Shown piece after piece: positions 25,146 to 64,000 of a DNA stretch of 64,000 nt. The position numbers were made by a program, and so were the translations under genes. How positions within the stretch are numbered: the stretch's first letter is position 1; each line of letters opens with the position of its first letter. Origin of the DNA: Owenia fusiformis (taxonomy: Eukaryota > Annelida > Polychaeta > Sabellida > Oweniidae); assembly GCA_903813345.2 (NCBI GenBank), contig CAIIXF020000002.1, positions 30,622,926 through 30,686,925 on the forward strand. Reading direction: 5' to 3'. Below the pieces are notes generated by a model. The model saw nothing but the letters and a program-made list of their open reading frames with translations. It did no database searches and was not told the origin of the DNA.

Positions 25146-25608
25146 TTATGAGTGTTTGCTGATTTCTTTTTACAAAATTATCACATATATCTACTGTTAA
25201 CAATAACATAGGCTTTTACAACAAAGTACATCTGAAATTATTTATAAAGCTACTAAATAGCTAAAGTATGAAAACTCAAAAACACCATTCAATATGATAC
25301 AAAGTATTATCGTGCGCTAACTTTTCTTAAGACATTCAAAATGGCTGACATGACAGCTAACAGGTCCAAAACCTAATCAGATCTAGAATAAAGTGAGCTG
25401 AACACGATGTTAAATATTTAAAAGCAACTGTGAAGCCGTTTTTCTGAAAGTTTGCAGACAAGGATTTTAGCATTTGACTTCAAAATGGCCGACAGGAAGT
25501 AGGTATCGAGTTAATTTTTTTTCATCCATATCTGTATGCACTCATAAGTTATCCCTGAAAATTTGAAGGTGATATCTGTAGTGGTTTTGGAGAAAACTCC
25601 TGGACGTG

Positions 25609-25685
25609 AGGACGGACGGACAGACGGACGGACGGACGGACAGACGGACGGACGGACGGACGGACGGACGGACAGACAGACGGAC
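25609..25685. repeat. (GGAC)n microsatellite with CAGA variants
   Basis: Runs of cggacggacggacagacgga follow the satellite directly and precede ggccgaaaatatggcccca. The arrangement suggests that the satellite, the microsatellite and the following ~50 bp belong to one repeat family. The Arg-Pro-Ser-Val frames on the minus strand are artefacts. Confidence 0.9.
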
Positions 25686-25744
25686 GCGCCTAGGCCGAAA
25701 ATATGGCCCCACACTATGTGGTTGGGACATAAAAAGAAACATGG

Positions 25745-26635
25745 TTTTATATTAGGTGATGATGTATTTTTATTATGGGGGCATGATAAATTAAAAAATG
25801 CTGACAAGAGTGTAAAAACATTTTAAAGTAAAGTATACACGCCTAGAAATATGAGTGTGACTTAATCCCACACATCTAATGTTTGGTACTTTGTTTTAAA
25901 TACTGTTACATGTTTTAGACGCACCTATAATAATTTAATTTTAGTGTACCATCGTTTCAAAGATGTAGATTCTAAATAAATAATAAAATAAAAAAATATT
26001 CTAACAATATCACCTTCAATGGATTTTGAGAATAAATGGATTTTGGATATTTGGGAAGAGAGAAATTAATTGATTAGAAATGACAAACAGACACGGTATT
26101 TTGACTGATTGACAGATGCTATCACCTGATAGCTGGTACAAACTTATAGAGGTCTAATCGCAGAGCTCCGATTTGGGAATTATTGACATGCTATTTTGAA
26201 TTTCTTAGTACTCACAGAATATTAACTTTTATTTATTTTTACAACTTGCTATAACTAATGATAGTATCAGGCTACCTTATGCAGTAATTGGAGGACTTAA
26301 TACAACGTATTCTTTTTTCTGAGTATGAAATATCAATCCCCCTTTGAGAGGTGGTTGCAAACATGTTGTGTTGACATAAAAATAGCGCATATTAAATGTC
26401 ATTGATATTAATACACATGTCATAGGCTTTGGTAGATTAACAGAATTTGTCTAGATTTGAAAATATCTATTATCGTGCCCATCTACCATTAGCAAGGACC
26501 AAAAAGTAGTAGAAGCAATTTATATGTTTCTAATACTTTGAATTAAGAATACTATGGAGAATTTTTTGAATATTTCATTTAAGTTTATTAGCTATGTTTC
26601 CAAATTAGTTTCAACAGAATTTGCAATTAAGTGCA
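25745..26635. other. 0.9 kb without recognised features
   Basis: AT-rich intergenic sequence downstream of copy B. No gene or repeat structure recognised. Confidence 0.5.
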
Positions 26636-39788: not shown

Positions 39789-40235
39789 TTATTGGTTATA
39801 GATTTTACTATTTCTAATTTTCCAAATTTCAAACTTGTGTTTAAACACTAGCTGGTTTCTATGGCATTTGCTCTCAAAATCTCCTTCATTGCTATAAAAT
39901 AAAATTTCTTTTTCAGAAAACTTTAAATTTTGAGTATTTACATATTCCTTTGCATTCGTACAATTGACAAATAAGTGTTTATGACTTTCTGCTTCAACAT
40001 TGCATATTTTACAAATTCCATTTGACTTCTGAATTTTTTGTAATTTTTTTTCTGTCCATATGGCTCCATTAAAACATTTAAATATAAATTCTTTAACATT
40101 ATTGCTAATGTTACATTTAAACAAAATCTTATAAAAATCTGAGAAATCCGTTTGAGCAAACTGCTCAGACCAATACTCTTCTGATTTGGATTCTGTTAAA
40201 CTGTTTTTTACAAACCCTTTTCTTATTGATTGCAC
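39789..40235 (-). pseudogene. LINE ORF2: C-terminal Cys/His region
   Basis: 148 codons, with CKICNVEAESHKHLFVNC and a C-terminal KHKFEIWKIRNSKI. The same architecture is found at 15394-15780. Separated from the RT core by stops. Confidence 0.75.
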
Positions 40236-40727
40236 ATTGATTTTCTGTACAGGAATACAATTAAAATATATTTTGCTTTCACTGTTTCACTGTTTTAATG
40301 CCTCAATCTTGATTCTGTCTAACTTGTTAAAAACTCCTTTAAGTAAATTGTATTGAAGAAAAGTCTGGCCATTAAAACCTACTTTTTGCCCAATTTGATC
40401 ATAGCTTAATAGTTCATTGTTTACATTACATACATCATTTATTTTATACACACCTTTTTGATGCCAGTTATCAAAATATAAAGGATTGTTCTTGTACAAC
40501 AAGTCTTTGTTATTTGATATATATGGACTACTTTTAACTGAATTATACATAATCCATGTTTTCAACACATCTGTCCAAAATGAGGACTTAATTCTTTCTA
40601 GTCCTTTTACCTGATTAAATTCAACATTAGACAGTAAAATAGAAAAATCTTGACAAATTTTGTCAATAAGATAGGTTGGGAGTTTTTTCCAGTTTGCTTT
40701 GTTTCTATCAAGTAGAAGTTTAATCCA

Positions 40728-41843
40728 TTAAATTGCAAAAGCATCTTGAAAATGTTTCACATCTATCATATTTAGACCTCCCTTTGCATTGCCCTGTATC
40801 AATATATTTCTTTTAATACATTCTACTACACCTTTTACATCTTCTTCTTTATACACACCTTTGTTACCTGACCAGATATATTTAAAAAACAAACAATTTA
40901 TCCGTTTAATAATCTTATCTGACAAAATAAAACTTTGCATAATGTATCCAAATTGTGATAGCATTAGTGATTTTACGAGAGTAATTTTACCAAACATGGT
41001 TAAACATCTACCTGCCCATCTTTTCATTATTTCTTCACATTTTTTGAATTTATATTCAATATTCTCATCTAATTCAACCACCTTATTGGTTGTGCAAAAT
41101 GTTACGCCTAATATTTTAATCCTATTATTTGGGAAAATATTCCATTTGATGTTTACTGGTTTTTCAACACAAAATTTTTTATTGCCTAACCATATTGCTT
41201 CTGATTTCTGTTTATTTAATTTTAACCCAGATATATTTGAAAAGGCATCAATAATATTGATTGCCTCTTTGACAGATGCAACATCTTTAAGTAAAAGTGA
41301 CATATCATCAGCGTATTGAACTAGTTTAATTTCATCTATTTCAGATATAACAATACCTTTCACATTATTAGTCTGTCTTATTTTACATGCCACTAGTTCA
41401 CAGCATAAAATAAAGCAAAAAGCAGATGCAGGGCACCCTTGAGATAAACCTGACTTTAGTGGTATCCACTCGGAGAGCCAACCTCCAAAATTAATGCAGC
41501 TTAGCCCATTTGAATTAAGTGTTTTTATCCATTTGATAAAATCAGGACCAAAACCAAAAATTTGGAATGTGTCATACATTAACTCTTTATTTAAACTATC
41601 ATACGCACGGGAATAATCCAGTGCTACAAGTACACCTTCATCGTCATTGTTACATAAATGTTCTATTACATCATCAATAAGTCTTAAAGCAGTAGCTGGT
41701 GTGCGACCTGGTATATATCCACATTGATCATGACTAATTATTTTTCCAATTACTTTTCTGAGCCTATTTGCTAATGATTTTGCTAAAATTTTATAATCAG
41801 TGTTTGTTAATGATATTGGCCTCCAACTTGGAAGACACTCCAT
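40728..41843 (-). pseudogene. LINE ORF2: reverse transcriptase core
   Basis: 371 codons. Motifs in order: SWRPISLTN, GYIPGRTPATA, LVALDYSRAYDSL (catalytic Asp), GLSQGCPAS, QYADDMSLLL (catalytic YADD), GLKLNKQKSE and KILGVTF. Tx1/L1-like order and wording. Joined upstream to 41889-42380 through a frame disruption. Confidence 0.85.
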
Positions 41844-42406
41844 TGGCAGACCTTTGCCTTTATATAATAAAGTAATTACTCTTTGTCTTTAGGAAGTAGA
41901 CAACTGTCCATTATTAAAACAATCATTTATAGCTGATACATAAAGTTCATTTATCTTGTTCCAAAAACATTTATAAAAACATGTAGTGAGTCCATCAAGA
42001 CCTGGACTTGAAGTATTTGACATATTTTTGAGTGCCTGAGTACATTCAGCTAAAGTTATTTGTCCTTCACAAGATTGCATTTCCTCTTCATTTAAAGAGG
42101 GCAGTACTACTCCATGTAAATATTCATTCAGTTTGTTTCTGGAGTAATTACTGTTTACACTAAAAATATTTTTATAATAGTTTACTTGAGCACCCATGAT
42201 ATCATTGGGATTGGTGTACAAATTATTTTCTACTCTACATGATTTCATTATTTTACTCTTTCCTCTGCTTTTTTCTAAACCTAAAAAATACTTGGAACTT
42301 TTTTCACCTTCTTCAGCCCATTGAACTTTTGCCCTTATTTGGGCACCTCTGGTTTCTACAGCTAAAATGTTATCATACATGAGTTTTAAGTGATTTGCCT
42401 GGTTTA

Positions 42407-43705
42407 CCCACAGGGGCTTGTCTCGAGGCGTCGGGCAAGCCCTCCGATGAGTCTACTGCTTATTAATAGTATTAAGGGTGGTCGGTTTTGATGCTACCTG
42501 AAATTTGTAGAAAATGATTGTCAGATATATCAAGTAAAAATATATGGAATCCTTTCAATAATCGACATGCTGATTCAAACAACACTACAGAGTAAACTTA
42601 CCTAAAATGGTAGCAATCCATCCACTAGTTGCTGAGATGTGTGAAGAACATGTAAGGAAGTGATTAAATTTAATTGAAAATGCAAAACACGACAATTTTC
42701 ACCCTCAAATTGTTAGCTCCAGAGTCGATTTCTTCCTCAAGACACGTCCACTGTTAAAAATCGGTAGTTCCTAGAGTTCTTTGTTTACTTAGGTTCATTT
42801 CCGTATATTATTTTTAACGAAGGACAGCCTATAACGACTGCTATACCTAAAATAGATGCATGAAATTATGTTTCGAAACTGAAAATGTGTTCCATGCGCA
42901 GTTGCGTTCAATCCAGCAATTTGATTAGTTCATATTATATGAACGCATGCGCAATGACCACATATTTTTCTAGATAGATGTCACTTGCGTTCATTATTTC
43001 ACACCAGTCCATTCCCATGATGCACCTAATATTGCGGGAATATTTTCCTTTAGTGATAAAACAAATTACTCTCATTTTCGAAATATGTTTTCCGTTCCTT
43101 GGCAATAATCTTTCATTTGGTACCGATCCAACCGCCGAAAAGTAATTCGAATCCTTCTGAATTGTGGGAATGAAGTACTTTCATTTTTGCGCATGCGCTG
43201 CGCATGCGCATAGAACACGGGAAAGTCGCCATTTTTCAACTTTCAGTTTCGAAACTTAATTTCATGCATCTTTTTGCGTATAGCAGTCGTTATAGGCTGT
43301 CCTTCGTTAAAAATAACATACGGGAATGAACCTAAGGAACAAAGAACTCTAAGAACTACCAATTTTTAACAGTGGACGTGTCTTGGGGAAGAAATCGACT
43401 CTGGAGGTAATAATTTGGCTGCAAAAAAATTCGGTACTTGCAGTGTAATCACTTCTTAACAAATTATTCAGATTTCTCAGCAACAAGTGGATGGATTGCT
43501 ACCATTTTAGGTAAGTTTACTCTTTATTGTTGTTTGAATCAGCATGTCGATTATTGAAAGGATTCCATATATTTTTACTTGATATATCTAACAATCATTT
43601 TCTACAAATTTCAGGTAGCATCAAAACCGACCACCCTTAATACTATTAATAAGCAGTAGACTCATCGGAGGGCTTGCCCGACGCCTCGAGACAAGCCCCT
43701 GTGGG
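42407..43705. mobile_element. 1,299-bp long-TIR element inside the LINE, 4-bp TTTA duplication
   Basis: TTTA flanks both ends (42403-42406 and 43706-43709). Removing the element and one TTTA restores the LINE reading frame across the junction, which proves the boundaries. Ends CCCACAGGGGCTTGTCTCG. The outer ~230 bp of each arm are almost identical, and similarity continues to ~470 bp. No transposase. Superfamily unidentified; 4-bp duplications occur in several. Confidence 0.85.
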
Positions 43706-43709
43706 TTTA

Positions 43710-44550
43710 CCAGGTCTACATTTTGGGGATCTTTTGTTAACTTAATCGAAACATTTTTCAAAGATTTATTGATACCTTCTAATTTTTGTCGTTTCTCTTT
43801 AGCTTTAGTTTTTCCATATTGAATACTGATTGATTGTACTTTGGATTTAAAATACTCCCATTTTTGTAATGATTGTAATTCTTCTAACTGGGTGATTTCT
43901 GTGACTAAATTGTTTACCATGTTTACATATACTATATCTTTTAAAAAACTATCATTGAATTTCCAATATGATGGCCCTCTTTTAAATTCACCGAAATCTA
44001 AGTGCATGTATATACCTTTATGATCTGAGTTTGGTACATTTAATATATCACAGGATTCAACATATTCAAAACAGGTTTCATTCGTAAAAATAAAATCAAT
44101 TTTTCTCATTATTGCTTTTGATTTGTGCCTCCATGTATATTCTTTACAGTCGTCATGTTGTAATCGCCAAACATCGTTTAGTTTTAAACTTTCTACCATA
44201 TTACAAAAGGCTTTGATTTCAATTTGACTGTGCATTTCACCACATATATTGTCTAATTTACTTAATGTACAGTTAAAATCACCTCCAATCAAAACAGATG
44301 ATGTAAGTATATTTTTTTGATTTATAGTTCTGGTTACCTTTTTGAAGAAGTCAATTTTTTCCTTTGTTTGGTTTGGAGCATAGATATTAAAAATATACAA
44401 TGGCTTATCAGAATATTGACATGAAATACCTAAAATTCTTGACTCAGCATGTATGACTTGCATATTTGATATTTCTGTACATTTATCACTAATTAAAATC
44501 ATTTCACCTTTACTGTGCTTTGTTCCAGCATTATAAAACATTTGCCCTTT
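43710..44550 (-). pseudogene. LINE ORF2: AP endonuclease (N-terminus missing)
   Basis: GDFNCTLSKLDN, IDFIFTNE and NVPNSDHKG are the exonuclease-endonuclease-phosphatase motifs. The first catalytic motifs are absent through 5' truncation. The apparent starting ATG lies in the target duplication, not in the LINE. Confidence 0.8.
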
Positions 44551-44696
44551 CCATATGCAGGTCATATATCATCACCTGTATCAAATACCAAATTAAAGAA
44601 AAATTTTCCTCTACTAAACTGTTATCCCTGTATCAAAACACCAAATAAAGAAAGTGACCCCTCTCTCATGCCTTGTATCATGTCAATATAACTCAC

Positions 44697-45700: not shown

Positions 45701-45761
45701 ATGGAGCCAAAATACGCAAGCATTTTTCAATTAATTATCGGATTTTTGGTTTTGTTATCAG
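45701..45761 (+). CDS. Mucin-like gene exon 1: signal peptide
   Basis: Starts ATGGAGCC, encodes a Lys-containing n-region and the hydrophobic core IIGFLVLLS, then donor GTGAGA in phase 1. Confidence 0.75.
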
Positions 45762-48700
45762 GTGAGACATATTTTGCTTAAATACAATTAAACCAATTCA
45801 CATGTAAAAATGTACAAAGATATTAAATTGAAAATTGAAAACTCATCTCAAGAGGCAAGCATGTTTACTCAATTTAGCTGCAACTATATCACTTTATGTA
45901 ATTAAAAATATATGTTTTATTCATTAAAAATATGTATAAAACATGTAAATGTATAAAGATGCCATTATATTCAGAATCAAGTGCGGATTATATTCTGAGT
46001 GGAAGTACACCGATTGTAAGTCGTGCACAAGGGCCAGACACTGGGGGATTCAAGACCTTTCTATATGTTGACCCGGGGTCATTGCTTTCTGGTGGTACCG
46101 TTGTTTCATTTGAGGCATGGATAGGACGCCTTGCTGATACCCGTTTTCAAGTTTGGAGACACTCGAATAATGAGACCTACACGCTGATTGGTGAAAAGTT
46201 CATTCCCGCAAACGAGTTGGTGCTAGGATATTTTAGGGTAATCACAGCTGTATAATACTACGCGTAAATAATGATCTTTATAATCTAAATAGAAGAAAAT
46301 ATTACCCGCTCACGTACAGGTTCTCTTAAAGCGTGTAACTTAACCTCCTTATTGAGAGCATACATGTGGACGAACCAATGATTCCATTTTATTACTAGGT
46401 CAATCTGACAGCAGAGGAGCAGTTTCTATGTAACGATGGTGATGTCGCTGGTTTCTATGTACAACAGCAAGAGTTTGCACTGTCAGCAGATTTCTACTTT
46501 GAAGAGAGTTTTCTTATGTACTCCCCATTGGCCTTCCCGCCTACCGTGGGGTCATCGGAGGAGTTTGAGTCGATCGCATTGCCGTATAAATTCTCATTCG
46601 GTGTGGGGACATTGCCAGGTACAATGCAAATTGATGATAATGATGATATAGTACTCATTAATAGCAATGGTGGGAATTAGGAGGTATCATAAAGATTTGC
46701 AAAAACACAAATTAAGCTATCCCAAATTTTGGTCCTAACTTATAGAACACAGGTCTTGATTTTCAAAAATTGTGTACGTTTTACTTTACAAATAGTTTCG
46801 TCTAACAAGAGAAGGAGACCTTGTAAATAACAACTATATGGAAAATAAGTCATATGAAATTGCGTCTTTAGAAATTGAAGTTGAAGAATAAATATTCTGC
46901 CTTATGTTATTAAAAGTTAAACTTTATTAATTTGTTTTACTTTGGTTTTTGATGATGATGTTTCTTGTACAATTAATATAGCAACTGCCACAACATCGTC
47001 GCCTACAACAGCAACCGAGTCCACATCTGAGATATCAACGAATGAAGACCTCACGACTATTACTTCAATAACAGAAGAAGGTACAACTACGGATGACACA
47101 ACGATTGAACTAACAACAGTTGGTACAACGAATGGACGTGTAATAACATCAGACAAAGCCATTGAGTCAACGACATCTGATGATACAACAACTGAGATGA
47201 TATCTCTTGGTTCAACAGACGACAGTGTAACATCACCATTCGCCACATCTATTTTAACAACAGCTGATTCTACGACCACAATTGAAACAACAACCGAGAT
47301 ATCGTCAGTGGCTACAGCGGACGATGGTCTAACATCGACAGTTCAAACAGCTGAATTAACAGAAGAAACCATCACTACATCATCAGTGAGTTACGTGCTT
47401 GGTGGAAATATTCCAGTTATTGATCGAAGCATAGCCCTTACTGGTGGAGAGAAAAGTTTTTTACTGAGTGACAAAGTTCTCGCAGATGGCCGTTTCGTTG
47501 CGGTGGAGGCTTGGATAAATGCTGTGACGTCATTTCACGTTCAGATATGGAGACCCGTTGATATAGCAACTGCCACATATCAACTTGTTGCTGATGTTCT
47601 TATCCCTGAAGCAGATGTGAATTTGGATTACTTCAAGGTATCGAATGACAGCGTTCGTTTTATATTTAAACACCTTGTGTCGTCTTCTTTGATTTCAAGT
47701 CATATTATTCCTAATACTGTAATAAAAATTGCCTTTTTATCAATATTTTGTAGTATGATGTCCCGTATGCTGATCAACTTGATTTAACTACGAATGACAG
47801 GGTAGGATTCTATGCTCCGCAAACACAGATTCCAATAGCAGCGGACTTCGACTTTACACAATTGGGATTATACCAATTTGCAGACTCCTCCGCACCAAGT
47901 GTAGGTGATGTTAGGGGTTTCGATACTGTAATGTTCCCATACTCGTTCTCGATTGCTGTTGAAATAGGAATAGGTAATTATGAGCAATAGTTAATCGATT
48001 GCTGTTGGTAAAATCGCCACAGCTAAAGGTCATATTTAGAATTTATTTAACTTGCTTTAATGACTGAACAAGGAGTTTATGGCATTTAGTATTTGTGAAA
48101 GTTGGGAATGTATTTTTGCAATCTCTTTAAGGATTACCTGCTCTCACTAACATGCCAACCACGGCATCCGAAACAACTGAGGCACAAACAACGGTGTCTC
48201 AAACCACAGAGCAAGCAACAACAGTTCTCTCTCAGACAACGCCACTGCAAACAACGGATTCTACAACAGCAAATGCAGAAACGACAGCGTACGAAACAAC
48301 ATCTGAGAACCAAACAAATGATGCACAGACAACAACAGAATCTCAAACGACAGAGAAATACACAACATTATCTCAAATAACAGAGCAACCAGCTTCAGCA
48401 AGTTCACAGACAACATCAAAACAAACAACGGATTCTATAACCACAAAGGCAGAAACGACAGCGTACGAAACAACCATGGCATCCCAAACAACTAAGTCAC
48501 AAACAACAGTGTCTCAAACTACAGAGAAACAAACAACAATATCTCAAACAACAGAACAATCAACAACAGTACTCTCCCAGACAACACCACTACAGACAAC
48601 GGTTACTCTAACAATGGATGCAGAAACGACAGCGTACGAAACAACAACTGACGTCCATGCAACCGAGGAACAAACAACAGCGTTACAAACAGCCAGCTCA

Positions 48701-51700
48701 CAAGTTACAGAGTCTCAAACGACACGTGTGCCTGATGTCACAACAATTACGTTCACCACAATAGGATCAACTGAAGAAAGCAGTGCAACAGTAACAGCCA
48801 TTGATCCAACAACCGTTGATGACACGGCAACTGAGTTCACTTCTATTGGTTCAACAAGCGACAGACTAACAACATCACATACCACTTCCTTTTTAACTAC
48901 AGTTGAACCTACAACTGCAGATAAAACAACACTTGAGATCACTTCGGTAGGATCAACGGAAGACAGCACGATAGATCAAACAAGTGCATTTTCTCAGGAA
49001 ATTATGACTTCTTCATCAGTGAGTTATGTTCTTGGTGGAAATGTTCCAGTTGTTGATCGGAGCATAACCCTTTCTGGTGGGAAGAAAAGTTTCTTACTGA
49101 GTGATAAACTTCTTGCGGATGGGCGTTTCGTCGCAGTCGAAGCATGGATAAATGCTGTGACGTCATTTCACGTACAGATATGGAGACCCGTTGATATAGC
49201 AACTGCCACATATCAACTTGTTGCTGATGTTCTCATCGCAGAAGAAAACGTGAATCTGGATTACTTCAAGGTATACTATTGACGAAGCTTCATTATTAAT
49301 ACCTAATTTGATCATCTCTGGCTTAAAATGAAATAAACTTTTCCGTTATTTGATCTGAATTTCATTTGTTTTATATTACTGTTTTGCAGTATGATGTCCC
49401 ATTTGCTGACCAAGTCGATGTAACTACGAATGATAGGGTAGGATTCTATGCGCCGCAAACACAGATTCCGATAGCAGCGGACTTTGACTTTACACAATTG
49501 GGATTATACCAATTTGCAGACTCCTCCGCACCAAATGTAGGGGATGTTAGGGGTTTCGATACTGTAATGTTCCCATACTCGTTCTCGATTGCTGTTGAAA
49601 TAGGAATAGGTCAGTAAGTTTAAGCGATAGGGAAAATATCATAATTAAATTTTCATTAAACATGCTTTTGTTGATTGTATGTTTCATATTTCATTCAGGA
49701 TTTCCGGCGTTAACTGATGAACCGACAACAATATCCCAAACAACAATGGCACAAACAACTACGCCTCCAACTACAGAGGCCCAAACAACAGCAACTCAAA
49801 CACCAGATGCACAAACAACAGCGCCTAAAACAACAGATGCACAAACATCAGCGCCTGAAACAACAGAGGCAGAGACAACAACAACTCAAACACCAGATGC
49901 ACAAACAACAGCGCCTGAAACAACAGATGCACAAACAACAGCGCCTGAAACAACAGAGGCACAAACAACAGCAACTCAAACACCAGATGCACAAACAACA
50001 GCGCCTAAAACAACAGATGCACAAACATCAGCGCCTGAAACAACAGAGGCAGAGACAACAACAACTCAAACACCAGATGCACAAACAACAGCGCCTGAAA
50101 CAACAGATGCACAAACAACAGCGCCTGAAACAACAGAGGCACAAACAACAGCAACTCAAACACCAGATGCACAAACAACAGCTCCTAAAACAACAGAAGC
50201 ACAAACAACGGAGCATGAAACAACAGAGGCACAATCAACAGAAGAGCAGAAAACAACATCTCAGACTATAGCGACCCAAACAACTGCATCGTCAACCATG
50301 GTGACCCAGATAACAGAGACTGAATCAACAGCGTCTCAAACAACAGAGACACAGACAACAGTGTCTCAAACAACCGAGTCTGAAACAACAGCTTCTCAAT
50401 CAACGGAAGGACAGGAAACTAAAGGACCAACCACTGTGACTCAAATGATTGAGACAGAATCAACAGCATCTCACACAATTAGCTCTATCCAAACAACCGC
50501 AGCTGTGAGCTACGTTCTTGGCGGAAACGTACCAGTGACAGACGGCAGTGTAACGTTGAATGGTGGAAAGAAAAGTTTCTTGCTAAGCGACAAGGCTCTT
50601 GCGGATGGGCGTTTTGTAGCTGTCGAGGCGTGGATAAATGCAGTGACGTCATTTCATGTTCAGATATGGAGACCGGTTGATATAGCAACTGCCACATATC
50701 AACTTGTTGCTGATGTTCTCATCGCAGAAGAAGATGTGAATCTTGATTACTTTAAGGTAAATAAAACATCTCAATTTTTCCAATTAGCTAACATCAATTA
50801 ACAATCGTCTATTAAATTGCAAGAATATCTATTCAAGCACATATAGAGAGATGACAACAAATGCATATGAATAGACAAAACCAGCTCTCGACATTGGCAG
50901 TGATGCGTATTTTGGTTGTTGATCGGCGGTGTTTTATAATTGTAATCTTCTTGAATAATATCTTTCAGTACGATGTTCCATTAGGTGATCAAGTCGATAT
51001 AAATGAAGATGACAGAGTGGGTTTCTATGCACCAGGATCCCAAATCCCGATAGCAGCTACATTTGACTTCACTCAAACGGCCGTGTATCAATTTAGCGAT
51101 GACTCAGCCCCTCAAATAAGTGAACTACGGGACTTTGATACTATCATGTTCCCGTATGCATTTTCTCTTGCTGTTGAAATTGGTATAGGTGAGATTTGTT
51201 TCAATACATAATTATAACGTTATACTTTTTTACAATTATGCTTATTTTAAGGACATTTGCAAAATTGCCTTATCCCTCATTTGGTTCCCCATATATATTT
51301 GATATGATCAATATCTCACATGAAAACTTATGTATGATACGCTTAGGCCGGTGATTTAAAGGTATTATCATGTTTATTGGATTATTTAAGGTAAATAGAT
51401 TTCCTCAATCGTAGATACAGGATGGGCCATAAAAGTGGGACACTTTAGAGAAGTGCAATATGTATGGCAGAAACAATCTATCTTTGACAGTAGACGTTCA
51501 ATATGTAGTTGAAAATGTAGCTCTAATTCGTAAAAAGTCCATGATTTACATTACTAGTATTTGTGTCATCGTGAGACTTTTTACAATCATCAGCGAGTTA
51601 TTTTATCATTGCTATAACATAATCAACCGACATGCATCCATTTTTATTTTCTGAACCAGGGCGTTTGACTGCGATTTGAAATTTTGTACCATGACTGTAA

Positions 51701-54700
51701 AGTCCTTGAAGTGATTTTGATTTAACTCTACTGGTTTAGCATACATTGAATGAAGATGATTTTTGCCAAATTTGAAGAGCCAAAACACTATGGCTAGGAA
51801 GTCATTTAGTTTTTTGCGGTTGCAGTCGCCCCTGACCGTGTCTAGTACAACTGTCTTTTGAGCAGGTGTCCAAGACATCATGTTTTACAACTAACCATCT
51901 ACAGGAGCGGTTCCTAGTCAACTCGGACCCTAGTTAACTCGGACCCTAGTCAACTTGGACCTATGTATTTTTTATATTTTTCCTCAGTTGAGCATTAAAA
52001 TGATAAGGTATATATAAAAACAACATTAATCATATATAATTGTTAGATAGAACAATGGTTGATAATGGTGAAAAATAATTCTGACACTTTTGAGTCAATC
52101 ATAAACCATTCAGCCTGATTGTGAAATCATATACTGGTAGGAATAAATATTAAATAACCAAGATTTTGATTTTACATGAAACCAGTTAATTTGTCTTCCA
52201 AACAAATAGTATGTAACAATAAATTAGAAATTCAAAGGTGAATTAAATGTTGTTGACCTCAATTCTTCAAACCAAGTTAAAAGGGGTAAACATGTTTGTA
52301 AACAATTGAAAGCCCATGATTTTTAAGGAATTTCTTATAATGAAAGTAAAAGATAAAGTTTCAAATCAAACGATAACACCATATTTGATAATTTTGTAAC
52401 TTGTATTTGCAATTCTTTGATTTATTAAATCAAAATATATTTCAAATTCCCTACTCATTGAATATTTTACTAAGGTCACCAAATTATTTAATCATTGTAT
52501 TTCCACATTTGAAGCTTTGAAATATGAAATAATCATGGATTTTCGACAAACAGAAAGTAATTTTACACACATGTTTAGAAAATGAAATTGGAAATAAAAT
52601 TGTTTAAAACACAAATGCGCTAACACATTTCCCTATACTGTATATTGGAATTAATGTAATACCTCTATATTTTGTTTACTTCAACACCCTAATTAAATGC
52701 TTATCAGAGGATACAAGATTTGTTAATTAGGTTTCTTAGTCAAAGTTATTATAACAGCATTATACACAACAGGCTAAATTGAATTCATTTTTTAAAGACA
52801 TAGTATAGTTCCAATTCTACATAAAGTCAATATAAAATGAATCAAAATCATTCAAAATCATTCTCATTTAATTATAAAGAGTTATTTGATCCCACATGAC
52901 GCAAATAGCATAGAAGTATAAAGGTTGTAAAGACTGATTTTGACTCATCAGAAATATACATAAACATCATTATTTAAAGATTTCAGTAATAAATTGAATT
53001 ATATCTTAAACTATTCCAATATTCTTAATATTTTGAAAGTTAATTGCTTTCACCTCTAACATAGCAAAATACCTCTGATTTATATTAAATATAACTGGGT
53101 CCAAGTTAACTAGGGTCCGAGTTGACTAGGGTCCGAGTTAACTAGGGTCCAAGTTGACTAGGGTCCGAGTTAACTAGGGTCCGAGTTGACCAGATACCAC
53201 AGGAGCTATACATACACAGTCTTTCTTTCCTGAAAAATTGAACATAATTGAATAGTATTTTCAAGATATAGCAATTTCTTTGGGTTGTGTTTTTTACGTA
53301 GTCCATTTTATTTGAAAAGATTTGCCAACCGAGTGTATCACTTAAGTTGCAGACTTTTTAAATATGCAAATTTCTTTAAGTGGGACGTTAGATATGACAT
53401 TTTGTTATTGAAATAGTGTGTCTTTTGTTAAATCTTTGCAATGGCGTTAAAAAATAATGTGTTTTGCAGTGTGTAGTGGAATATGTAATGATTAAACTGG
53501 ATTAAAATGATTAAATTGGCGGGAAATTTGAGTATTCGAGAAATGAAAAGCTGACAAACATTTTTTCATTTTTTCCCCAAAAGCACTAAAATAACTTTAA
53601 GTTCATGAAAACTATTAAATGAAAATTTGCATGGAGTCTTTAAAATGATAATTGGTTGATATGGATTCTTTTAAATTAAATAAGTGAGTGTCCTATTTTT
53701 AAGCCCACCCTGTATATTCTTACTACAACCTTAACTTTGGATTTCCGAGCAGATTACTTCATCATAGATTTACCTGGTTTGTTTATAGGTTTTCCGGCAT
53801 TAACGCAGGCGCCCCAAACTACTTTATTTGAGACTACAGTAGCAACGGTAACTGAATCTCAATCAACTGAACAATCTACCGTAACGAAAGTACCAACAAC
53901 TGAGTCCATATCAACAGCTGAACCAACAACCGAGTCCATGACAACAACTGCACCAACAACCGAGGCCACATCTATAGCTGATCCTACAACTGAGGCCACA
54001 TCTATAGCTGATCCTACAACTGAGGCCACATCTATAGCTGATCCTACAACTGAGACCATATCAACAGCTGAACCAACAACTGAGTCCATATCAACAGCTG
54101 AACCAACAACCGAGTCCATGACAACAACTGCACCAACAACCGAGGCCACATCTATAGCTGATCCTACAACTGAGGCCACATCTATAGCTGATTCTACAAC
54201 TGAGTCCATATCAACAGCTGAACCAACAACCGAGTCCATATCAACAGCTGAACCAACAACTGAGTCCATGACAACAACTGCACCAACAACTGAGTCCATG
54301 ACAACAACTGCACCAACAACCGAGGCCACATCAATAGCTGATCCTACAACTGAGGCCACATCTATAGCTGATTCTACAACTGAGTCCATATCAACAGCTG
54401 AACCAACAACCGAGTCCATATCAACAGCTGAACCAACAACTGAGTCCATGACACCAACTGCACCAACAACTGAGTCCATGACAACAACTGCACCAACAAC
54501 CGAGTCCACATCTATAGCTGATTCTACAACTGAGTCCATATCAACAGCTGAACCAACAACCGAGTCCATATCAACAGCTGAACCAACAACTGAGTCCATG
54601 ACAACAACTGCACCAACAACCGAGGCCACATCTATAGCTGATTCTACAATTGAGTCCATATCAACAGCTGAACCAACAACCGAGTCCATATCAACAGCTG

Positions 54701-57700
54701 AACCAACAACTGAGTCCATGACAACAACTGCACCAACAACCGAGGCCACATCTATAGCTGATCCTACAACTGAGACCATATCAACAGCTGAACCAACAAC
54801 CGAGTCCATATCAACAGCTGAACCAACAACCGAGTCCATGGCAACAACTGCACCAACAACCGAGGCCACATCTATAGCTGATCCTACAACTGAGGCCACA
54901 TCTATAGCTGATTCTACAACTGAGTCCATATCAACAGCTGAACCAACAACCGAGTCCATATCAACAGCTGCACCAACAACTGAATCCATGACAACAACTG
55001 CACCAACAACTGAGGCCACATCTATAGCTGATCCTACAATTGAGTCCATATCAACAGCTCAACAAACAACCAAGTCCATAACAACAACTGCGTCAACAAC
55101 TGAGGCAACATCTATATCTGATCCTACAACTGAGTCCATATCAACAGCTGCACCAACAACTGAATCCATGACAACAACTGCACCAACAACTGAGGCCACA
55201 TCTATAGCTGATCCTACAACTGAGTCCATATCAACAGCTGAACCAACAACCGAGTCCATGGTAACAACTGCACCAACAACTGAGTCTATATCAACGGCTG
55301 AACCAACAACCGAGTTCATGGTAACAACTGCACCAACAACTGAGTACATATCAATAGCTGATTTTACAACTGAGTTCATCACAACAGAAGCACCCACTAC
55401 TATAGCCACATCTATGGCTGATCCTACAACTGAGTCCATTACAGCAGCTGATCTTACAACTGACTCCATATCAACAGCTGCATCAGCAACTGAGTACATA
55501 TCAACAACCGATCCTACAACTGAGTTCATTTCAACAGCTGATCTAATTACTGAGTCAATAACAACGGCTGCACCAACTACTGAGTACTTATCGACAGCCG
55601 ATCTTATGACTGAGTTTATAACAACATCTGCACCGACTACTGATTTTAAATCTACAGATGATCATACAACTGAGTCCTCAGCTGCACCAACTATAATTAC
55701 AACCGTTAAAAGAACTGATGATGTGACAATAACAGCTGATCAAAGAACTGATGCTATGACCACATACGCTCAAACCACTGATGCTGTAGCAACAGCTGAT
55801 CAAACTTCTGATGCTATATCAACAGCCGCTCAAACAACTGTTGCTATAACAACAGCAAGTCAAACATTTAATGCTATGACAACAGATTCTCAATTCTCTG
55901 CTGCAACAACATCCGCTCAATCAATTGAAGATTCCACAACAGCTGATCAAACAACTAAAGCTATAACAACAACTGCTCAAACAACTGATACCTTGACAAC
56001 AGGCGCCCTAACAACAACTAATGATGCGATAACAGCTAGCTCTCAAACAACCAATGCTGTCGCTTCGACAACGGAGACATTTTTAACTGAGCCCCAACGG
56101 TTTCGATTCGGTGGTAACATACCACTCATTGATCGTATTTATACATTGACATCTGGAAAGAAAAACTTTCTGTTGAGCGATAGTGTACTTGCTAATGGAA
56201 TTCTGGTTGCAGTTGAAGCCTGGATAAATGCTCTGACGTCATTTCATGTTCAAATATGGAGGCCACTTGACATTTCAACTGCCACATATCAACTCGTTGC
56301 TGATGTTTTCATTCCAGAGGAAGATATAAATCTCGATTATTTTAAGGTAAATTCATATTTAAAAACAATTTCCTGAGCATAGTGTTTAACATGTACTGTA
56401 ATGATTTAATATTGAATGAATTATGCCATGGTCCTGCGGTTTTTGTATCCTGATAATAGACCGCTAATTAGTTCTAAATTGGAGAAGCAGGGAGTTGGAC
56501 ATTGTTTCCAAAATGCATGCATTAGACCATTTTTGTAACGCTGGGATTTGCTTCTTGTGACATTTACACCTCGTAGATCCCTGTGTGTTCTAAAATTTTG
56601 CAAGCTGTAACCGAGCTTTAGAATGTATTTGACTACTACAGTATAGTACCATAATTCTATCAATCGTTGTGTTCTTTTTTAGTACGAAATCCCTGCAAAC
56701 CAGCAAGTTAACATTTCTTCAGATGACCGACTCGGGTTTTATGCACCAGAGACTCTCATTCCTATAGCGGCTGATATTGACGCTTCACAAGTTGCATTAT
56801 ATCAATTTCAAGAAGCATCGGCGCCGATCATGTTGGACAATCGTACATTTGATACCACAGCTTTCCCGTTTATATTTTCGTTTGCTGTTGAAATTGACAC
56901 AGGTGCGTATTTTGCAAATGATTTCACACGGCGGTTGTTGTGTAGTTGTAGTAATTTGTTTCATTGAAAACATTAATGTGTTTAGAGATTAGATTTTAAT
57001 GAGATTATAAAAGGCCATATGAGGGCATATAAAAAGCTAGCATGTATTTCCAGGTAACACTGTCATGACAACTGAATACACAAGAACTGATGTGGATACA
57101 ACTTCTCAAACTACTACTACTGAATCTCAAACTGACTTCCGATCAACTGCATCTCAAACAACCGACTTGCCAACTACTGAATCTCAGACAACTGAATTAC
57201 CAACTACTGAATTTCAAACAAGTGACTTACCAACTACTGAATCTCAAACAACCGCCTTACCATCAACTGAATCTCAAACAACTGACTTACCAACTACTGG
57301 ATATCAAACAACTAACTTACAATCTACTGAATCTCAAACAACTGACTTACCATCAACTGAATCTCAAACAACTGAATTACCGACTACTGAATCTCAAACA
57401 ACCGGCTTACCAACTACTGGATATCAAACAACTGACTTCCCAACTACTGAATCTCAAACAACTGACTTACCATCAACTAAATCTCAAACAACTGAATTAC
57501 CAACTACTGATTCTCAAACAACTGACTTTCCACCAACTGCATCTCAAACAACTGCACTACCAACTACTAAATTTAAGACAACTGAATTACCATCAACTGA
57601 ATCTCAAACAACTGAATTACCATCAACTGAATCTCAAACAACTGACTTACCATCAACTGAATCTCAGACAACTGACTTATCAACTACTGAATCTCCAACA

Positions 57701-60700
57701 ACTGACTTGCCATCAACTAAATTTCAAACAACTGACTTACAATCAACCGAATCTCAAACAACCCACTTACCAACTACTGAATTTCAAACAACTGAATTAC
57801 CATCAACTGAATCTCAAACAACTTACTTACCAATTACTGAATCTCGAACAACTTACTTACCAACTACTGAATCTCAGACAACCGACTTACCAACTACTGA
57901 ATCTCAAACAACTGACTTGCCATCAACTGAATCTCAAACAACTGACTTGCCATCAACTGAATCTCAAATAACTGACTTACCAACTACTGAATCTCAAACA
58001 ACTGACTTGCCATCAACTAAATCTCAAACAACTGACTTACCATCAACTGAATCTCAAACAACTGACTTACCATCAACTGAATCTCAAACAACTGACTTGC
58101 CATCAACTGAATCTCAAACAACTGACTTACCAACTACTGCATCTCAAACAACTGACTTGCCATCAACTAAATCTCAAACAACTGACTTACCATCAACTGA
58201 ATCTCAAACAACTGACTTACCATCAACTGAATCTCAAACAACTGACTTGCCATCAACTGAATCTCAAACAACTGACTTACCAACTACTGCATCTCAAACA
58301 ACTGACTTGCCATCAACTGAATCTCAAACAACTGACTTACTATCAACTGAATCTCAATCAACTGACTTACCAACTATTGAATCACAAACAACTGACTTAC
58401 TTACTACTGAATCTCAAACAACTGACTTACCAATTACTGAATCTCAAACAACTGACTTACAATCGACTGAATCTCACACAACTAACTTACCATCAACTGA
58501 ATCTCAAACAACTGACTTTCCAACCACTGCATCTCAAACAACTGACTTGCCATCAACCGAATCTCAAACAACCGACTTACCAATTACTGAATCTCAAACA
58601 ACTGACTTACCGTCTACTGAATCTCAAACAACTGGCTTACCAACTACTAAATCTCAAACAACTGACTTAGAAACTACTGAATCTCAGACAACTGAATTAC
58701 CAACTACTGACTCTCAAATAACTGAATTACCAACTACTGAATCTCAAACAACCGGCTTACCATCAACTGAATCTCAAACAACTGACTTACAAACTACTGA
58801 ATCTCAAACAACTGGCTTACCAACTACTAAATCTCAAACAACTGACTTACAAACTACTGAATCTCAAACAACTGGCTTACCAACTACTAAATCTCAAACA
58901 ACTGACTTAACAACAACTGAATCTCAGACAACTGAATTAGCAACTACTGAATCTCAAACAACCGCCTTACCATCAACTGAATCTCAAACAACTGACTTAC
59001 AAACTACTGTATCTCAAACAACCGACTTACAATCAACTGAATTTCAAACAACTGACTTACCAACTACTGAATCTCAAACAACTGACTTGCCAACTACTGA
59101 ATCTCAAACAACTGAACTACCAACTACTGACTTTCAAACAACTTACTCAACATCAACTGAATCTCAAACAACTGACTTACCATCAACCGAATCTCAAACA
59201 ACTGACTTACCAACTACTGAATCTCAGACAACTGACTTACTTACTATTGAATCTCAAACAACTGAATTACCAACTACTGAATCTCAAACAACTGAATTAG
59301 AAACAACTGAATCTCAGACAACTGAATTACCAACTACTGAATCTCAAATAACTGAATTACCAACTACTGAATATCAAACAACTTACTTACAATCAACTGA
59401 ATCTCAAACAACTAACTTACCAACTACTGAATCTCAAACAACTGACTTACCAACTACTGAATCTCAGACAACTGAATTACCAACTACTGAATCTCAAATA
59501 ACTGAATTACCAACTACTGAATCCCAAACAACTGCCTTACCATCAACTAAATCTCAAACAACCGACTTACCAACTACTAAATCAGAAACAACTGACTTAC
59601 AATCTACTGAATCTCAAACAACTGAATTAGAAACAACTGAATCTCAGACAACTGAATTACCTACTACTGAATCTCAAATAACTGAATTACCAACTACTGA
59701 ATATCAAACAACTGACTTACAATCAACTGAATCTCAAACAACTAACTTACCAACTACTGAATCTCAAACAACTGACTTACCAACTACTGAATCTCAGACA
59801 ACTGAATTACCAACTACTGAATCTCAAATAACTGAATTACCAACTACTGAATCTCAAACAACTGCCTTAACATCAACTGAATCTCAAACAACCGACTTAC
59901 CAGCTACTAAATCACAAACAACTGACTTACAATCTACTGAATCTCAGACAACTGAATTAACAAATACTGAATCTCAAACAACCGACTTTACAACTACTGA
60001 ATCTCAAACAACAAACTTACAAATTACTGAATCTCAAATAACTGACTTCCCAACTACTGAATCTCAGACAACTGAATTACCAACTACTGAATCTCACACT
60101 TTAGACTTACCAACTACTGAATCTCAAACAACTGACTTGCCAACTACTGGATATAAAACAACTAACTTACAATCTACTGAATCTCAAACAACCGACTTAC
60201 CAAATACTGGCTTACAAACAACTCAATCTCAAACAACTGGTTTACTAACTACTGAATATCAAACAACTAACTTACAATCTACTGAATCTCAGACAACTGA
60301 ATTAACAACTACTGAATCTCAAACAACCGACTTTCCAACTACTGAATCACAAACAACTGAATTACCAAATACTGGATCTCAAACGACCGACTTACCAACT
60401 ACTGAATCTCAAACAACCGACTTACCATCAACTGAATCTCAAACAACTGACTTACCATCAACTGAATCTCACACCACTGAATTACCAACTACTGAATCTC
60501 AAACAACCGACTTACCAAATACTGGATCTCAAACGACCGATTTACCAACTACTGAATCTCAAACAACTGACTTACCAACTACTGAATCTCAAACAACTGA
60601 CTTACCAACTACTGAATCTCAAACAACTGACTTACCAACTACTGAATCTCAAACAACTGAATTAGCAACTACTGAATCTCAAACAACCGCGTTACCATCT

Positions 60701-63700
60701 ACTGAATCTCAGACAACTGAATTACCATCAACTGAATCTCAAACAACTGACTTACCATCAACTGAATTACAAACAACTGAATTACCAACTACTGAATCTC
60801 AAACAACTGACTTACCAACTACTGAATCTCAAACAACTGACTTACCAACTATTGAATCTCAAACAACTGACTTACCAACTACTGAATCTCAAACAACTGA
60901 ATTAGCAACTACTGAATCTCAAACAACCGCGTTACCATCTACTGAATCTCAGACAACTGAATTACCATCAACTGAATCTCAAACAACTGACATACCATCA
61001 ACTGAATTACAAACAACTGAATTACCAACTACTGAATCTCAAACAACTGAATTAACAACTACTGAATCTCAAACAACCGACTTACCAACTACTGAATCTC
61101 AAACAACCGACTTACCATCAACCAAAACTCAAACAACCGACTTACCATCAACCGAATCTCAAACAACTGACTTACATACTACCGAATCTCAAACAACTGA
61201 CTTACTAACTACTAAATCTCAGACAACTGAATTGCAAACTACTGAATCTCAAATAACTGAATTACCAACTACCGAATCTCAAACAACTGACTTACCATCA
61301 ACTGAATCTCAAACAACTGACATACCAACTACTGAATCTCAAACAACTGACTTGCCATCAACTAAATCTCAAACAACTAACTTACAATCTACTGAATCTC
61401 AGGCAACTGAATTAACAACTACTGAATCTCAAACAACTGAATTAACAACTACTGAATCTCAAACAACCGACTTACCAACTACTGAATCTCAAACAACCGA
61501 CTTACCATCAACTGAATCTCAAACAACCGACTTACCATCAACCGAATCTCAAACAACTGACTTACATACTACCGAATCTCAAACAACTGACTTACTAACT
61601 ACTAAATCTCAGACAACTGAATTACAAACTACTGAATCTCAAATAACTGAATTACCAACTACCGAATCTCAAACAACTGGCTTACAAACAACTGAATCTC
61701 AAACAACTGACTTACAAACTACTGAATCTCAGACAACTGAATTATCAACTACTGGATATCAAACAACTGACTTACAATCTACTGAATCTCAAACAACCGA
61801 CTTACCAACTACTGAATCTCAAACAACTGAACTACCAACTACTGACTTTCAAACAACTGACTTACCATCAACTGAATCTCAAACAACTGACTTGCCAACT
61901 ACTGGATATCAAACAACTAACTTACAATCTACTGAATCTCAGACAACTGAAGTAACAACTACTAAATCTCAAACAACCGACTTACAAACTACTGTATCTC
62001 AAACAACCGACTTACAAACTACTGTATCTCAAACAACCGACTTACAATCTACTGAATCTCAAACAACTGACTTACAAACTACTGTATCTCAAACAACCGA
62101 CTTACCATCTACTGAATCTCAAACAACTGACTTACAAACTACTGTATCTCAAACAACCGACTTACCATCTACTGAATCTCAAACAACTGACTTTCCACCA
62201 ACTGCATCTCAAACAACCGACTTACCAACTACTGGATCTCAAACAACTGACTTCCCAACTACTGAATCTCAGACAACTGAATTACAAAGAACTGAATCTC
62301 AGTCAACTGAATTACCAACTACTGAATCTCAAACAACCGACTTACAAACTACTGTATCTCAAACAACCGACTTACCATCTACTGAATCTCAAACAACTGA
62401 CTTTCCACCAACTGCATCTCAAACAACCGACTTACCAACTACTGGATCTCAAACAACTGACTTCCCAACTACTGAATCTCAGACAACTGAATTACAAAGA
62501 ACTGAATCTCAGTCAACTGAATTACCAACTACTGAATCTCAAACAACCGACTTACCATCAACTGAATCTCAATCAACTGACTTACCAACTACTGGATATC
62601 AAACAACTAACTTACAATCTACTGAATCTCAAACAACCGACTTACCAACTACTGAATCTCAAACAACTGAACTACCAACTACTGAATTTCAAACAACTGA
62701 CTTAACATCAACTAAATCTCAAACAACTGACTTACCATCAACTGAATCTCAAACAACTGACTTAACAACTACTGAATCTCAAACAACTGAATTACCAACT
62801 ACTGAATCTGAGACAACTGACTTACAAACAACTGAATCTCAAACAACTGACTTACCATCAACTGAATCTCAAACAACTGACTTTCCAACTACTGAATCTC
62901 AATCAACCGACTTACCAACTACCGAATCTCAAACAACCGACTTACCAACTACTGAATCTCAGACAACTGAATTACCAACTAATGAATTTCAAACAACTGA
63001 CATACCAACAACTGAATATCAAACAACTGAATTACCAACTACTGAATCTCAAACAACCGACTTCCCATCAACTGAATCTCAAACAACTGACTTACCAACT
63101 ACTAAATTTCAAACAACTGACTTACCAACTACTGAATCTCAAATAACTGACTTACTAACCACTGAATCTCAAACAACTGAATTACCAGCTGCTGAATCTC
63201 AAACAACTGACTTACCAACTACTGAATCTCAAATAACTGACTTACCAACTACTGAATCTCAAATCACTGCCTTACCAACTACTGAATCTCAAACAACTGA
63301 CTTCCCAACTACTGAATCTCAGACAACTGAATTACAAACAAATGAATCTCAGACAACTGAATTACCAACTACTGAATCTCAAACAACCGACTTACCATCA
63401 GCTGAATCTCAAACAACCGACTTCCCATCAACTGAATCTCAAACAACTGACTTACCAACTACTAAATTTCAAACAACTGACTTACCATCAACTGAATCTC
63501 AAACAACTGACTTGCCATCAACCGAATCTCAAACAACCGACTTACCATCAACTGAATCTCAAACAACCGACTTACCATCAACTGAATCTCAAACAACTGA
63601 CTTACAAACTACTAAATCTCAAACAACTGACTTATCAACTACTGGATATCAAACAACTAACTTACAATCTACTGAATCTCAGACAACCGACTTACCAACT

Positions 63701-64000
63701 ACTGAATCTCAAACAACTGAACTACCAACTACTGAATTTCAAACAACTGACTTACCATCAACTGAATCTCAAACAACTGACTTACCATCTACTGAATCTC
63801 AAACAACTGACTTTCCATCAACTGAATCTCAAACAACCGACTTACCAATTACTGAATCTCAAACAACTGACTTACCGTCTACTGAATCTCAAACAACTGG
63901 CTTGCCATCTACTGAATCTCAAACAACTGAACAACCAACTACTGAATTTCAAACAACTGACTTACCATCAACTGAATCTCAAACAACTGACTTAACATCA
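45701..64000 (+). CDS. Giant secreted mucin-like protein with five repeated ~157-residue domains (3'-partial)
   Basis: Twelve exons with AG/GT borders: 45701-45761, 45975-46237, 46399-46618, 46982-47637, 47754-47973, 48132-49270, 49390-49609, 49699-50756, 50969-51188, 53789-56346, 56683-56902, 57054 to beyond 64000. Introns are phase 1 between modules and phase 0 inside each domain. A signal peptide (MEPKYASIFQLIIGFLVLLS) starts the protein. Domains 2-5 each follow a Thr/Ser linker with ~10-residue periodicity, expected to be densely O-glycosylated. Domains are almost cysteine-free and look beta-rich (GGNIP..., AWINAVTSFHVQIWRP, RVGFYAP). I do not recognise the domain. Likely secreted to mucus or extracellular matrix. 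At least 4,700 residues; the 3' end is not in the window. Confidence 0.85.
45975..46237 (+). CDS. Exon 2: domain 1, first half
   Basis: 263 nt, acceptor atattcag. Encodes ESSADYILSGSTPIVSRAQG ... VVSFEAWIGRLADTRFQVWR ... GYFR. The most diverged copy, with no linker before it, so probably the ancestral N-terminal unit. Confidence 0.75.
46399..46618 (+). CDS. Exon 3: domain 1, second half
   Basis: 220 nt between actag and gtacaa. Encodes VNLTAEEQFLCNDGDVAGFY ... LPYKFSFGVGTLP. Contains the only cysteine I noticed in these half-domains. Confidence 0.75.
46982..47637 (+). CDS. Exon 4: linker 1 (~135 aa) and domain 2, first half
   Basis: 656 nt, acceptor aatatag. The linker is Thr/Ser/Glu-rich (TTSSPTTATESTSEIS). 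Domain part SYVLGGNIPVIDRSIALTGG to LDYFK, 83 residues. Donor gtatcg. Confidence 0.85.
47754..47973 (+). CDS. Exon 5: domain 2, second half
   Basis: 220 nt, acceptor ttttgtag, donor gtaatt. Encodes YDVPYADQLDLTTNDRVGFY ... PYSFSIAVEIGI. Nearly identical to exon 7. Confidence 0.85.
48132..49270 (+). CDS. Exon 6: linker 2 (~296 aa) and domain 3, first half
   Basis: 1,139 nt. Starts GLPALTNMPTT, the same junction motif (G-[LF]-P-A-L-T) as exons 8 and 10. The linker has 5- and 10-residue repeats (SQTTE, AETTAYETT) with a longer internal duplication. Domain part SYVLGGNVPVVDRSITLSGG to LDYFK. Confidence 0.85.
49390..49609 (+). CDS. Exon 7: domain 3, second half
   Basis: 220 nt, acceptor ttttgcag, donor gtcagt. 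YDVPFADQVDVTTNDRVGFY ... SFSIAVEIGI. Confidence 0.85.
49699..50756 (+). CDS. Exon 8: linker 3 (~269 aa) and domain 4, first half
   Basis: 1,058 nt. The linker is decapeptide-based (APETTDAQTT, ATQTPDAQTT). 49801-49980 and 49981-50160 are identical 180-bp tandem copies. Domain part SYVLGGNVPVTDGSVTLNGG to LDYFK. Confidence 0.85.
49801..50160 (+). repeat. Two identical 180-bp tandem copies inside exon 8
   Basis: Every base of 49801-49980 matches 49981-50160. Each is six 30-bp subunits. In-frame higher-order duplication of very recent origin, or a site of ongoing homogenisation. Confidence 0.9.
50969..51188 (+). CDS. Exon 9: domain 4, second half
   Basis: 220 nt, acceptor ctttcag, donor gtgaga. 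YDVPLGDQVDINEDDRVGFY ... AFSLAVEIGI. Confidence 0.85.
51418..53712. mobile_element. Mariner-like element (TA target) in intron 9, carrying a nested element
   Basis: Ends CAGGATGGGCCATAAAAGTG (left) and, inverted, CAGGGTGGGCTTAAAAATAG (right), each flanked by TA (51416-51417 and 53713-53714). The ends resemble mariner terminal repeats. A minus-strand 89-codon frame near the left end (51612-51881, MSWTPAQKTVVLD) was not recognised as a transposase; without one this is a decayed or non-autonomous copy. Interrupted by 51909-53198. Confidence 0.65.
51909..53198. mobile_element. 1,290-bp element with tandem-repeat terminal inverted repeats, 8-bp duplication
   Basis: ACAGGAGC flanks both ends (51901-51908 and 53199-53206). 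Ends are GGTTCCTAGTCAACTCGG and, inverted, GGTATCTGGTCAACTCGG. Each terminal repeat is an array of a 16-bp unit (CCTAGTTAACTCGGAC and variants): about three units left, about six right, in opposite orientation. AT-rich interior, no transposase. An 8-bp duplication fits hAT, P or Merlin-type elements; superfamily unassigned. Confidence 0.8.
53789..56346 (+). CDS. Exon 10: linker 4 (~769 aa) and domain 5, first half
   Basis: 2,558 nt, acceptor tttatag. Starts GFPALTQAPQTT. The linker is about 60 regular decapeptides of three types (TTESISTAEP, TTESMTTTAP, TTEATSIADP) in changing order, then a more irregular TTDAITTAAQ-like part. Domain part RFGGNIPLIDRIYTLTSGKK to LDYFK. The long minus-strand open frame over it is a shadow. 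Confidence 0.85.
56683..56902 (+). CDS. Exon 11: domain 5, second half
   Basis: 220 nt, acceptor tttttag, donor gtgcgt. YEIPANQQVNISSDDRLGFY ... FIFSFAVEIDT. More diverged than domains 2-4. Confidence 0.85.
57054..64000 (+). CDS. Exon 12: giant decapeptide-repeat exon (>2,315 codons, open at window edge)
   Basis: Acceptor atttccag. After GNTVMTTEYTRTDVDTTSQ the exon is a 30-bp tandem repeat in frame with the domains, consensus T-[DE]-L-P-[TS]-T-E-S-Q-T, roughly 225 copies. I saw no stop codon in this frame. About half of the residues are Thr/Ser, so it is expected to be an O-glycosylated rod. Partial units (near 60200) change the repeat register but keep the frame. The plus strand has very little G. 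Other frames (LNLKQLTYQL-like) are shadows. A sixth domain may follow beyond the window. Confidence 0.85.
57122..64000 (+). repeat. 30-bp coding minisatellite, ~6.9 kb
   Basis: Unit close to GAATCTCAAACAACTGACTT + ACCAACTACT. Higher-order blocks are visible: about 60541-60780 and 60781-61020 are near-identical 240-bp copies, as are parts of 61081-61260 and 61501-61680. Homogenisation is incomplete, with scattered variant units. Confidence 0.9.

Follow-up and report, generated by a model that had tools for sequence, protein, structure and literature searches.

A candidate giant mucin gene of Owenia fusiformis, with six copies of an exon-pair domain that lacks a named family

The stretch analysed here, called the window, comprises 64,000 nucleotides (nt) of the Owenia fusiformis genome assembly (498 Mb), at C2:30622926-30686925. 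In this assembly COX1 was not found; PF16915, the haemoglobin-linker family of annelids, exceeds its cut-off at three sites, which points to an annelid. The right-hand part of the window carries, on the plus strand, much of a predicted gene for a giant mucin, in which a recurring domain, roughly 159 residues in length, alternates with stretches rich in threonine, serine and proline. Each copy is encoded in two pieces, half A and half B, on successive exons. Five copies lie in the window, where an earlier reading of the same letters (the original prediction) had placed them, with half A ending at positions 46237, 47637, 49270, 50756 and 56346; a genome search with one copy adds a sixth, just past the window end, bringing the total for the gene to six.

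The exons, all on the plus strand, are arranged as follows. The coding part of exon 1 (45701-45761) is the sole candidate over the thresholds in a scan of positions 20000-45960 for a hydrophobic start followed by a good phase-1 donor: it encodes a signal-peptide-like sequence, MEPKYASIFQLIIGFLVLLS, ends in phase 1 (CAG/GTGAGA) and is joined in frame to copy 1, whose halves occupy 45975-46237 and 46399-46618. From copy 2 on, the exon ending with half A also contains the mucin stretch preceding it. This stretch measures 134 residues in copy 2 (exon 46982-47637, half B 47754-47973), 295 in copy 3 (48132-49270 and 49390-49609), 268, with 30/90-nt repeats, in copy 4 (49699-50756 and 50969-51188), and 768, with 60-180-nt repeats, in copy 5 (53789-56346 and 56683-56902). 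The original prediction had given half B a length of 220 nt, and this is exactly its length in each of the five window copies. The A exon of copy 6 is by far the longest, 10,763 nt with a mucin stretch of 3,503 residues: it runs from 57054 to 67816, the part up to 64000 being in the window and the end corresponding to position 3816 of the downstream locus L001, into which the window scale is extended for all coordinates above 64000. A 30-nt repeat occupies 57116-63994 of this exon, and a similar repeat continues past the window end. Half B of copy 6 follows at 68030-68249; then come an exon with a mucin stretch and the first part of a SEA domain (68419-70649), the second part of SEA (71210-71444), and an exon with EGF and mucin sequence, which extends from 71649 up to a 500-N assembly gap at 72001.

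When spliced, the first 13 exons yield a model of 5,939 codons with zero stops, in which all cumulative phases are consistent; with the three further exons the model reaches 6,878 residues, still stop-free, at the gap. Where 12 exons were originally proposed, the count is at least 16 once the pair of copy 6 and the exons of the C-terminal end are included. GT/AG borders are found at the A/B junctions and at the outer junctions of the copies, and in all six the intron inside the domain is in phase 0 and the introns outside it in phase 1, just as anticipated. The splicing of the exon pairs is a prediction, based on consensus sites, phase and conservation.

The mucin stretches before copies 2-6, between 134 and 3,503 residues long, contain 49-54% threonine, serine and proline, and the one after copy 6 contains 52%. 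Once the two exons are joined, the SEA domain (PF01390) scores 43.6 bits, for a cut-off of 26.4, and features a GSVIA motif, which we take to be the self-cleavage motif of membrane-mucin SEA domains. After SEA, the spliced C-terminal end matches EGF_CA with 34.9 bits (cut-off 27). The succession of SEA and EGF is the layout of membrane mucins. A definition of mucins in the abstract of PMC1552070 calls for a PTS (Pro/Thr/Ser) domain and for VWD or SEA domains. Both a Pro/Thr/Ser-rich region and SEA are found here, and by this definition the predicted protein is classified as a mucin.

The six copies of the domain contain a single cysteine in all. In an alignment of ten rows from the family, the invariant positions are G37, Q55, W57, R58, L69, D101, G104, F105 and P148. 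No family could be named for the domain in the original prediction, which held that a strong Pfam match would speak against it: none was obtained for the three window copies searched, even at an expectation value (E) of 10. When the ten family rows were searched, four Pfam families appeared, each in one row (best E 0.0073, below the curated cut-off); a set of 51 family rows produced three, again in one row each (best E 0.073). Matches in other libraries were rejected as weak: one row of ten in NCBIfam (E 0.12), one of ten in PHROGs (E 0.021), a best E of 1.3 for single-sequence searches of PDB sequences, and weak or partial profile matches to the PDB sequences 8hx3 (E 0.02) and Rab-30 (E 0.093). 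TMEM154, in the relative L010 (E 0.0074), and DUF7265, in the relative L021 (E 0.028), both fall below the Pfam cut-off. As judged by these searches, the domain is without a credible match in the libraries compared: Pfam, NCBIfam, PHROGs and PDB sequences.

Bacterial and viral relatives were sought by patterns seeded with short conserved words, a procedure which distant relatives would escape: none was found among 83 pattern stretches in bacterial genome contigs, nor among 5 and 65 such stretches in viral contigs. The literature on mucins and SEA in Owenia, annelids and invertebrates, in the portion covered, which leaves out most subscription journals, holds no account of the domain.

Within the genome, the domain was found in at least 42 places, falling into 29 clusters (25 kb) on 8 contigs; this is a hand list made from the genome match lists and fetched in part, containing some weak matches (E up to about 1) and one place, C6:25963893, with five internal stops. 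A profile built from 16 domains matches all 14 loci outside its build set (L009-L022; best independent E each <= 3.4e-5) and all six loci of a second set (L023-L028; best independent E each <= 0.001). The family can be divided into four groups, and profile-profile matches link all six pairs of them, the weakest with E 2.6e-5 and a probability of 75%. By these matches, the domain is a family of many genes here and is not private to the mucin gene.

Some of the relatives are arranged much like the mucin gene. The arrays at L002, L004 and L005 repeat its order of a Thr-rich stretch with half A, a phase-0 intron and half B, the latter measuring 217-220 nt and ending in phase 1; they differ from it in being separate loci, whose Thr-rich stretches are shorter as far as they were read. 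Past the array at L002 (C2:19.09 Mb), at 8232-8447, a collagen-like sequence, GPAGSQGPGTQGPPGKDG, follows a Thr-rich stretch; it has no Pfam match. Other relatives belong to the same family by profile and keep different company. L020 has a SUEL lectin in one frame with the domain; at L023 (C2:26.40 Mb) and L025 (C1:51.72 Mb) a cysteine-bearing branch alternates with kringle and AbfB domains. In these three loci, unlike the mucin copies, both half cores are contained in one exon, a cysteine precedes them (e.g. FPCDG), and no long mucin stretch is present in the part read.

The position of the A/B intron was compared in 17 rows, namely copy 6 and 16 paralogue copies. In all 17, GT follows half A and AG precedes half B, in phase 0, although the cut points were set by eye and the count is biased towards agreement. 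The phase-1 GT after half B is found directly in 14 rows and one codon further in two; it was not located in one, L007, whose donor after half A is also weak. Eight copies (L003a, L003b, L009, L010, L020, L023k, L024 and L025) have no A/B intron. Because the intron recurs among paralogues, the A/B split is likely older than the expansion within the mucin gene.

The history of the six copies is only in part the one originally drawn. Copies 2 and 3 share 89% of their residues in half A and 95% in half B, and copy 4 is 88-93% identical to them in half A: to this extent copies 2-4 are indeed nearly identical, but half B of copy 4 reaches only 67-69%. Copy 5, which had been placed as intermediate, pairs with copy 6, both by identity (80% in A, 85% in B) and in the tree. 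In the tree, copies 2-6 group together (100/99), and a second clade (94/88) holds all six copies along with L002, L004 and L005; 10 of the 24 inner branches of the tree stay open, and a long-branch flag attaches to L003a, L006 and L013. Copy 1 stands outside the clade of copies 2-6, in no settled order relative to L002, L004 and L005, a position consistent with its having been called old. From copy 2 on, the repeated unit is larger than the bare exon pair that had been suggested as the unit of duplication, as the A exon includes the preceding mucin repeats.

The ratio of nonsynonymous to synonymous substitution rates (dN/dS) lies between 0.05 and 0.32 in the 14 half comparisons with finite dS, out of 20 made among copies 2-6, copy 1 being excluded and dS being saturated in the other six. 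Purifying selection on the domain is thus supported by statistics. An exchange of tracts between copies is likewise supported in half A, where copies 3 and 4 have in common a run of 21 codons free of silent change (p 0.00025); the run shared by copies 2 and 4 is 14 codons long (p 0.004). The A/B introns, when compared with shuffled sequences in three pairs, are scarcely alignable (z 3.1 for copies 2-3, 2.1 for 5-6, -0.9 for 3-4), and only short pieces are matched by blastn. A chance origin of the repeated pattern is dismissed because of the open 5,939-codon model with fitting phases, the low dN/dS and the presence of the same A/B intron in 16 paralogue copies. On sequence criteria, the domain is real, built from exon pairs and without a named family; its extent had been understated, and the likeness of copies 2-4 overstated.

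The structure prediction that had been recommended was run on copy 5, using window sequence only, translated through the in-frame intron. The resulting model is poor, with a mean predicted local distance difference test (pLDDT) score of 42.7 and a predicted template modelling (pTM) score of 0.45, and consists mostly of strands. It suggests a beta sandwich and nothing more specific. That the domain may have diverged, beyond the reach of profiles, within a beta-sandwich superfamily already known, and so be new in name only, is a view that we consider rather probable. The strands of the model agree with it, as do the PHM, PHR, Eph-receptor, PNGase F and capsid sandwiches that a second aligner retrieves at Z 3.4-5.3, with the same poor model. 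Against it stand Foldseek, where none of 373 matches reaches E <= 0.001, the profile searches, which gave no match, and the best Z itself, 7.7, in a range that the tool rates as common: it is that of a phage tail-tip protein, below which comes a mixed set including PHM and PHR domains. The structural matches of this model were used neither to decide on membership nor to dismiss folds missing from the list.

Taken together, the data are best read as the greater part of a giant mucin gene, whose product would most likely be a membrane mucin and in which the domains would act as beads, attaching to glycans or to one another; we assign to this reading a probability of about 0.6. According to it, the repeats would carry O-linked glycans and stand as a stiff brush on the cell surface, and the SEA domain, as its motif suggests, would cut itself and hold the resulting chains together until the ectodomain is shed under strain. 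The membrane anchor would be located in or after the 500-N gap. The six beads, by binding glycans or one another, might cross-link or functionalise the coat. Their number may have risen through duplication of a phase-1-bounded unit, formed by mucin stretch plus half A, followed by half B, with a later homogenisation of short half-A tracts between copies. The binding role is put forward mainly because some paralogues have lectin-like company.

Several points weigh against this reading. Up to the gap that follows the EGF exon no membrane segment is visible, and since the gap covers the place where such a segment would lie, we infer the anchoring. The lectin-associated paralogues are distant from the mucin-borne copies (profile-profile E 1.2e-9 over 96 columns), for which reason their company is a weak functional guide for the latter. 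No exchange tract is detected in the other eight of the ten copy pairs (p >= 0.32), the only fold model is the poor one of copy 5, and the mucin gene is a prediction, and the role of the beads a proposal, both made from sequence.

The missing segment would find a simple explanation if the gene ended after EGF and the last mucin stretch, encoding a secreted slime or tube mucin with the beads as glue. The arrays at L002, L004 and L005 could be cited in the same sense, as they too set the domain between Thr-rich stretches; reading of pieces of them, with no search aimed at these features, brought up neither SEA nor EGF nor a membrane segment. The order of SEA and EGF, with GSVIA, is however that of membrane mucins, and in the paralogue L010 there is a hydrophobic segment with a tail of basic residues; we judge a secreted product unlikely. 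A decayed or never-expressed locus, with a coincidental splice pattern, would suit a gene read from its letters only and a LINE-like element whose end lies some 1.1 kb before exon 1, but is highly improbable in the face of 13 exons with 5,939 stop-free codons, a dN/dS of 0.05-0.32 where measurable, an A/B intron repeated in 16 paralogue copies, and SEA and EGF domains that are still recognisable.

The membrane mucin with beads may be compared to known systems. The best-described membrane mucins are those of vertebrates, such as MUC1, MUC3/12/17, MUC13 and MUC16, whose layouts lead from Thr/Ser/Pro repeats to a GSVIA-type SEA and then to EGF, as here. Unlike them, this gene sets six unnamed domains between the repeats, and its anchor is unseen before the gap. 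The CysD modules of gel-forming mucins are small globular units spaced between mucin repeats in a similar manner, and by analogy a cross-linking function may be considered; CysD modules, however, are rich in cysteine, while the six copies here total one, and no Pfam family matched them. A more far-reaching proposal, which we make tentatively and regard as somewhat doubtful, is that the domain represents a new animal extracellular family, with members at dozens of sites across the genome. Its mucin-borne branch would furnish a giant membrane mucin with beads that cross-link non-covalently or bind ligands, as a counterpart of CysD modules almost free of cysteine, and exon-confined gene conversion would keep the copies evolving in concert. 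If the membrane-mucin reading is true, a giant annelid SEA-EGF mucin with regular globular inserts would represent a second way of building a brush on the cell surface. Although numerous here, the domain family has no profile in any library searched; a single new one would annotate its members in this genome and, if the family is shared, those of other animals too.

The mucin locus is bounded downstream by a gene on the same strand which, from its ankyrin repeats and TRP_2 match (L001 8782-9846, about 8.8 kb beyond the window), is a TRP-type channel gene. Upstream of exon 1, the LINE (long interspersed nuclear element)-like element is of the non-LTR (non-long-terminal-repeat) type and lies on the minus strand at 39789-44568, split across several frames, with matches to RVT_1 (110 bits) and Exo_endo_phos_2. 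Two frames with identical 102-residue translations are found at 2822-3130 (minus strand) and 8516-8824 (plus strand), about 5.4 kb apart; the first has no Pfam match, and the pair is probably either a mobile element present twice or the two arms of an inverted repeat. A minus-strand frame at 1245-1523, also without a Pfam match, contains a strongly hydrophobic segment (LLLILIAVLGVVAIIGLILAAVAL) and might be an exon of a different membrane protein. Finally, a low-complexity frame at 25511-25826 of the window features repeated SVRP and SVCP words.

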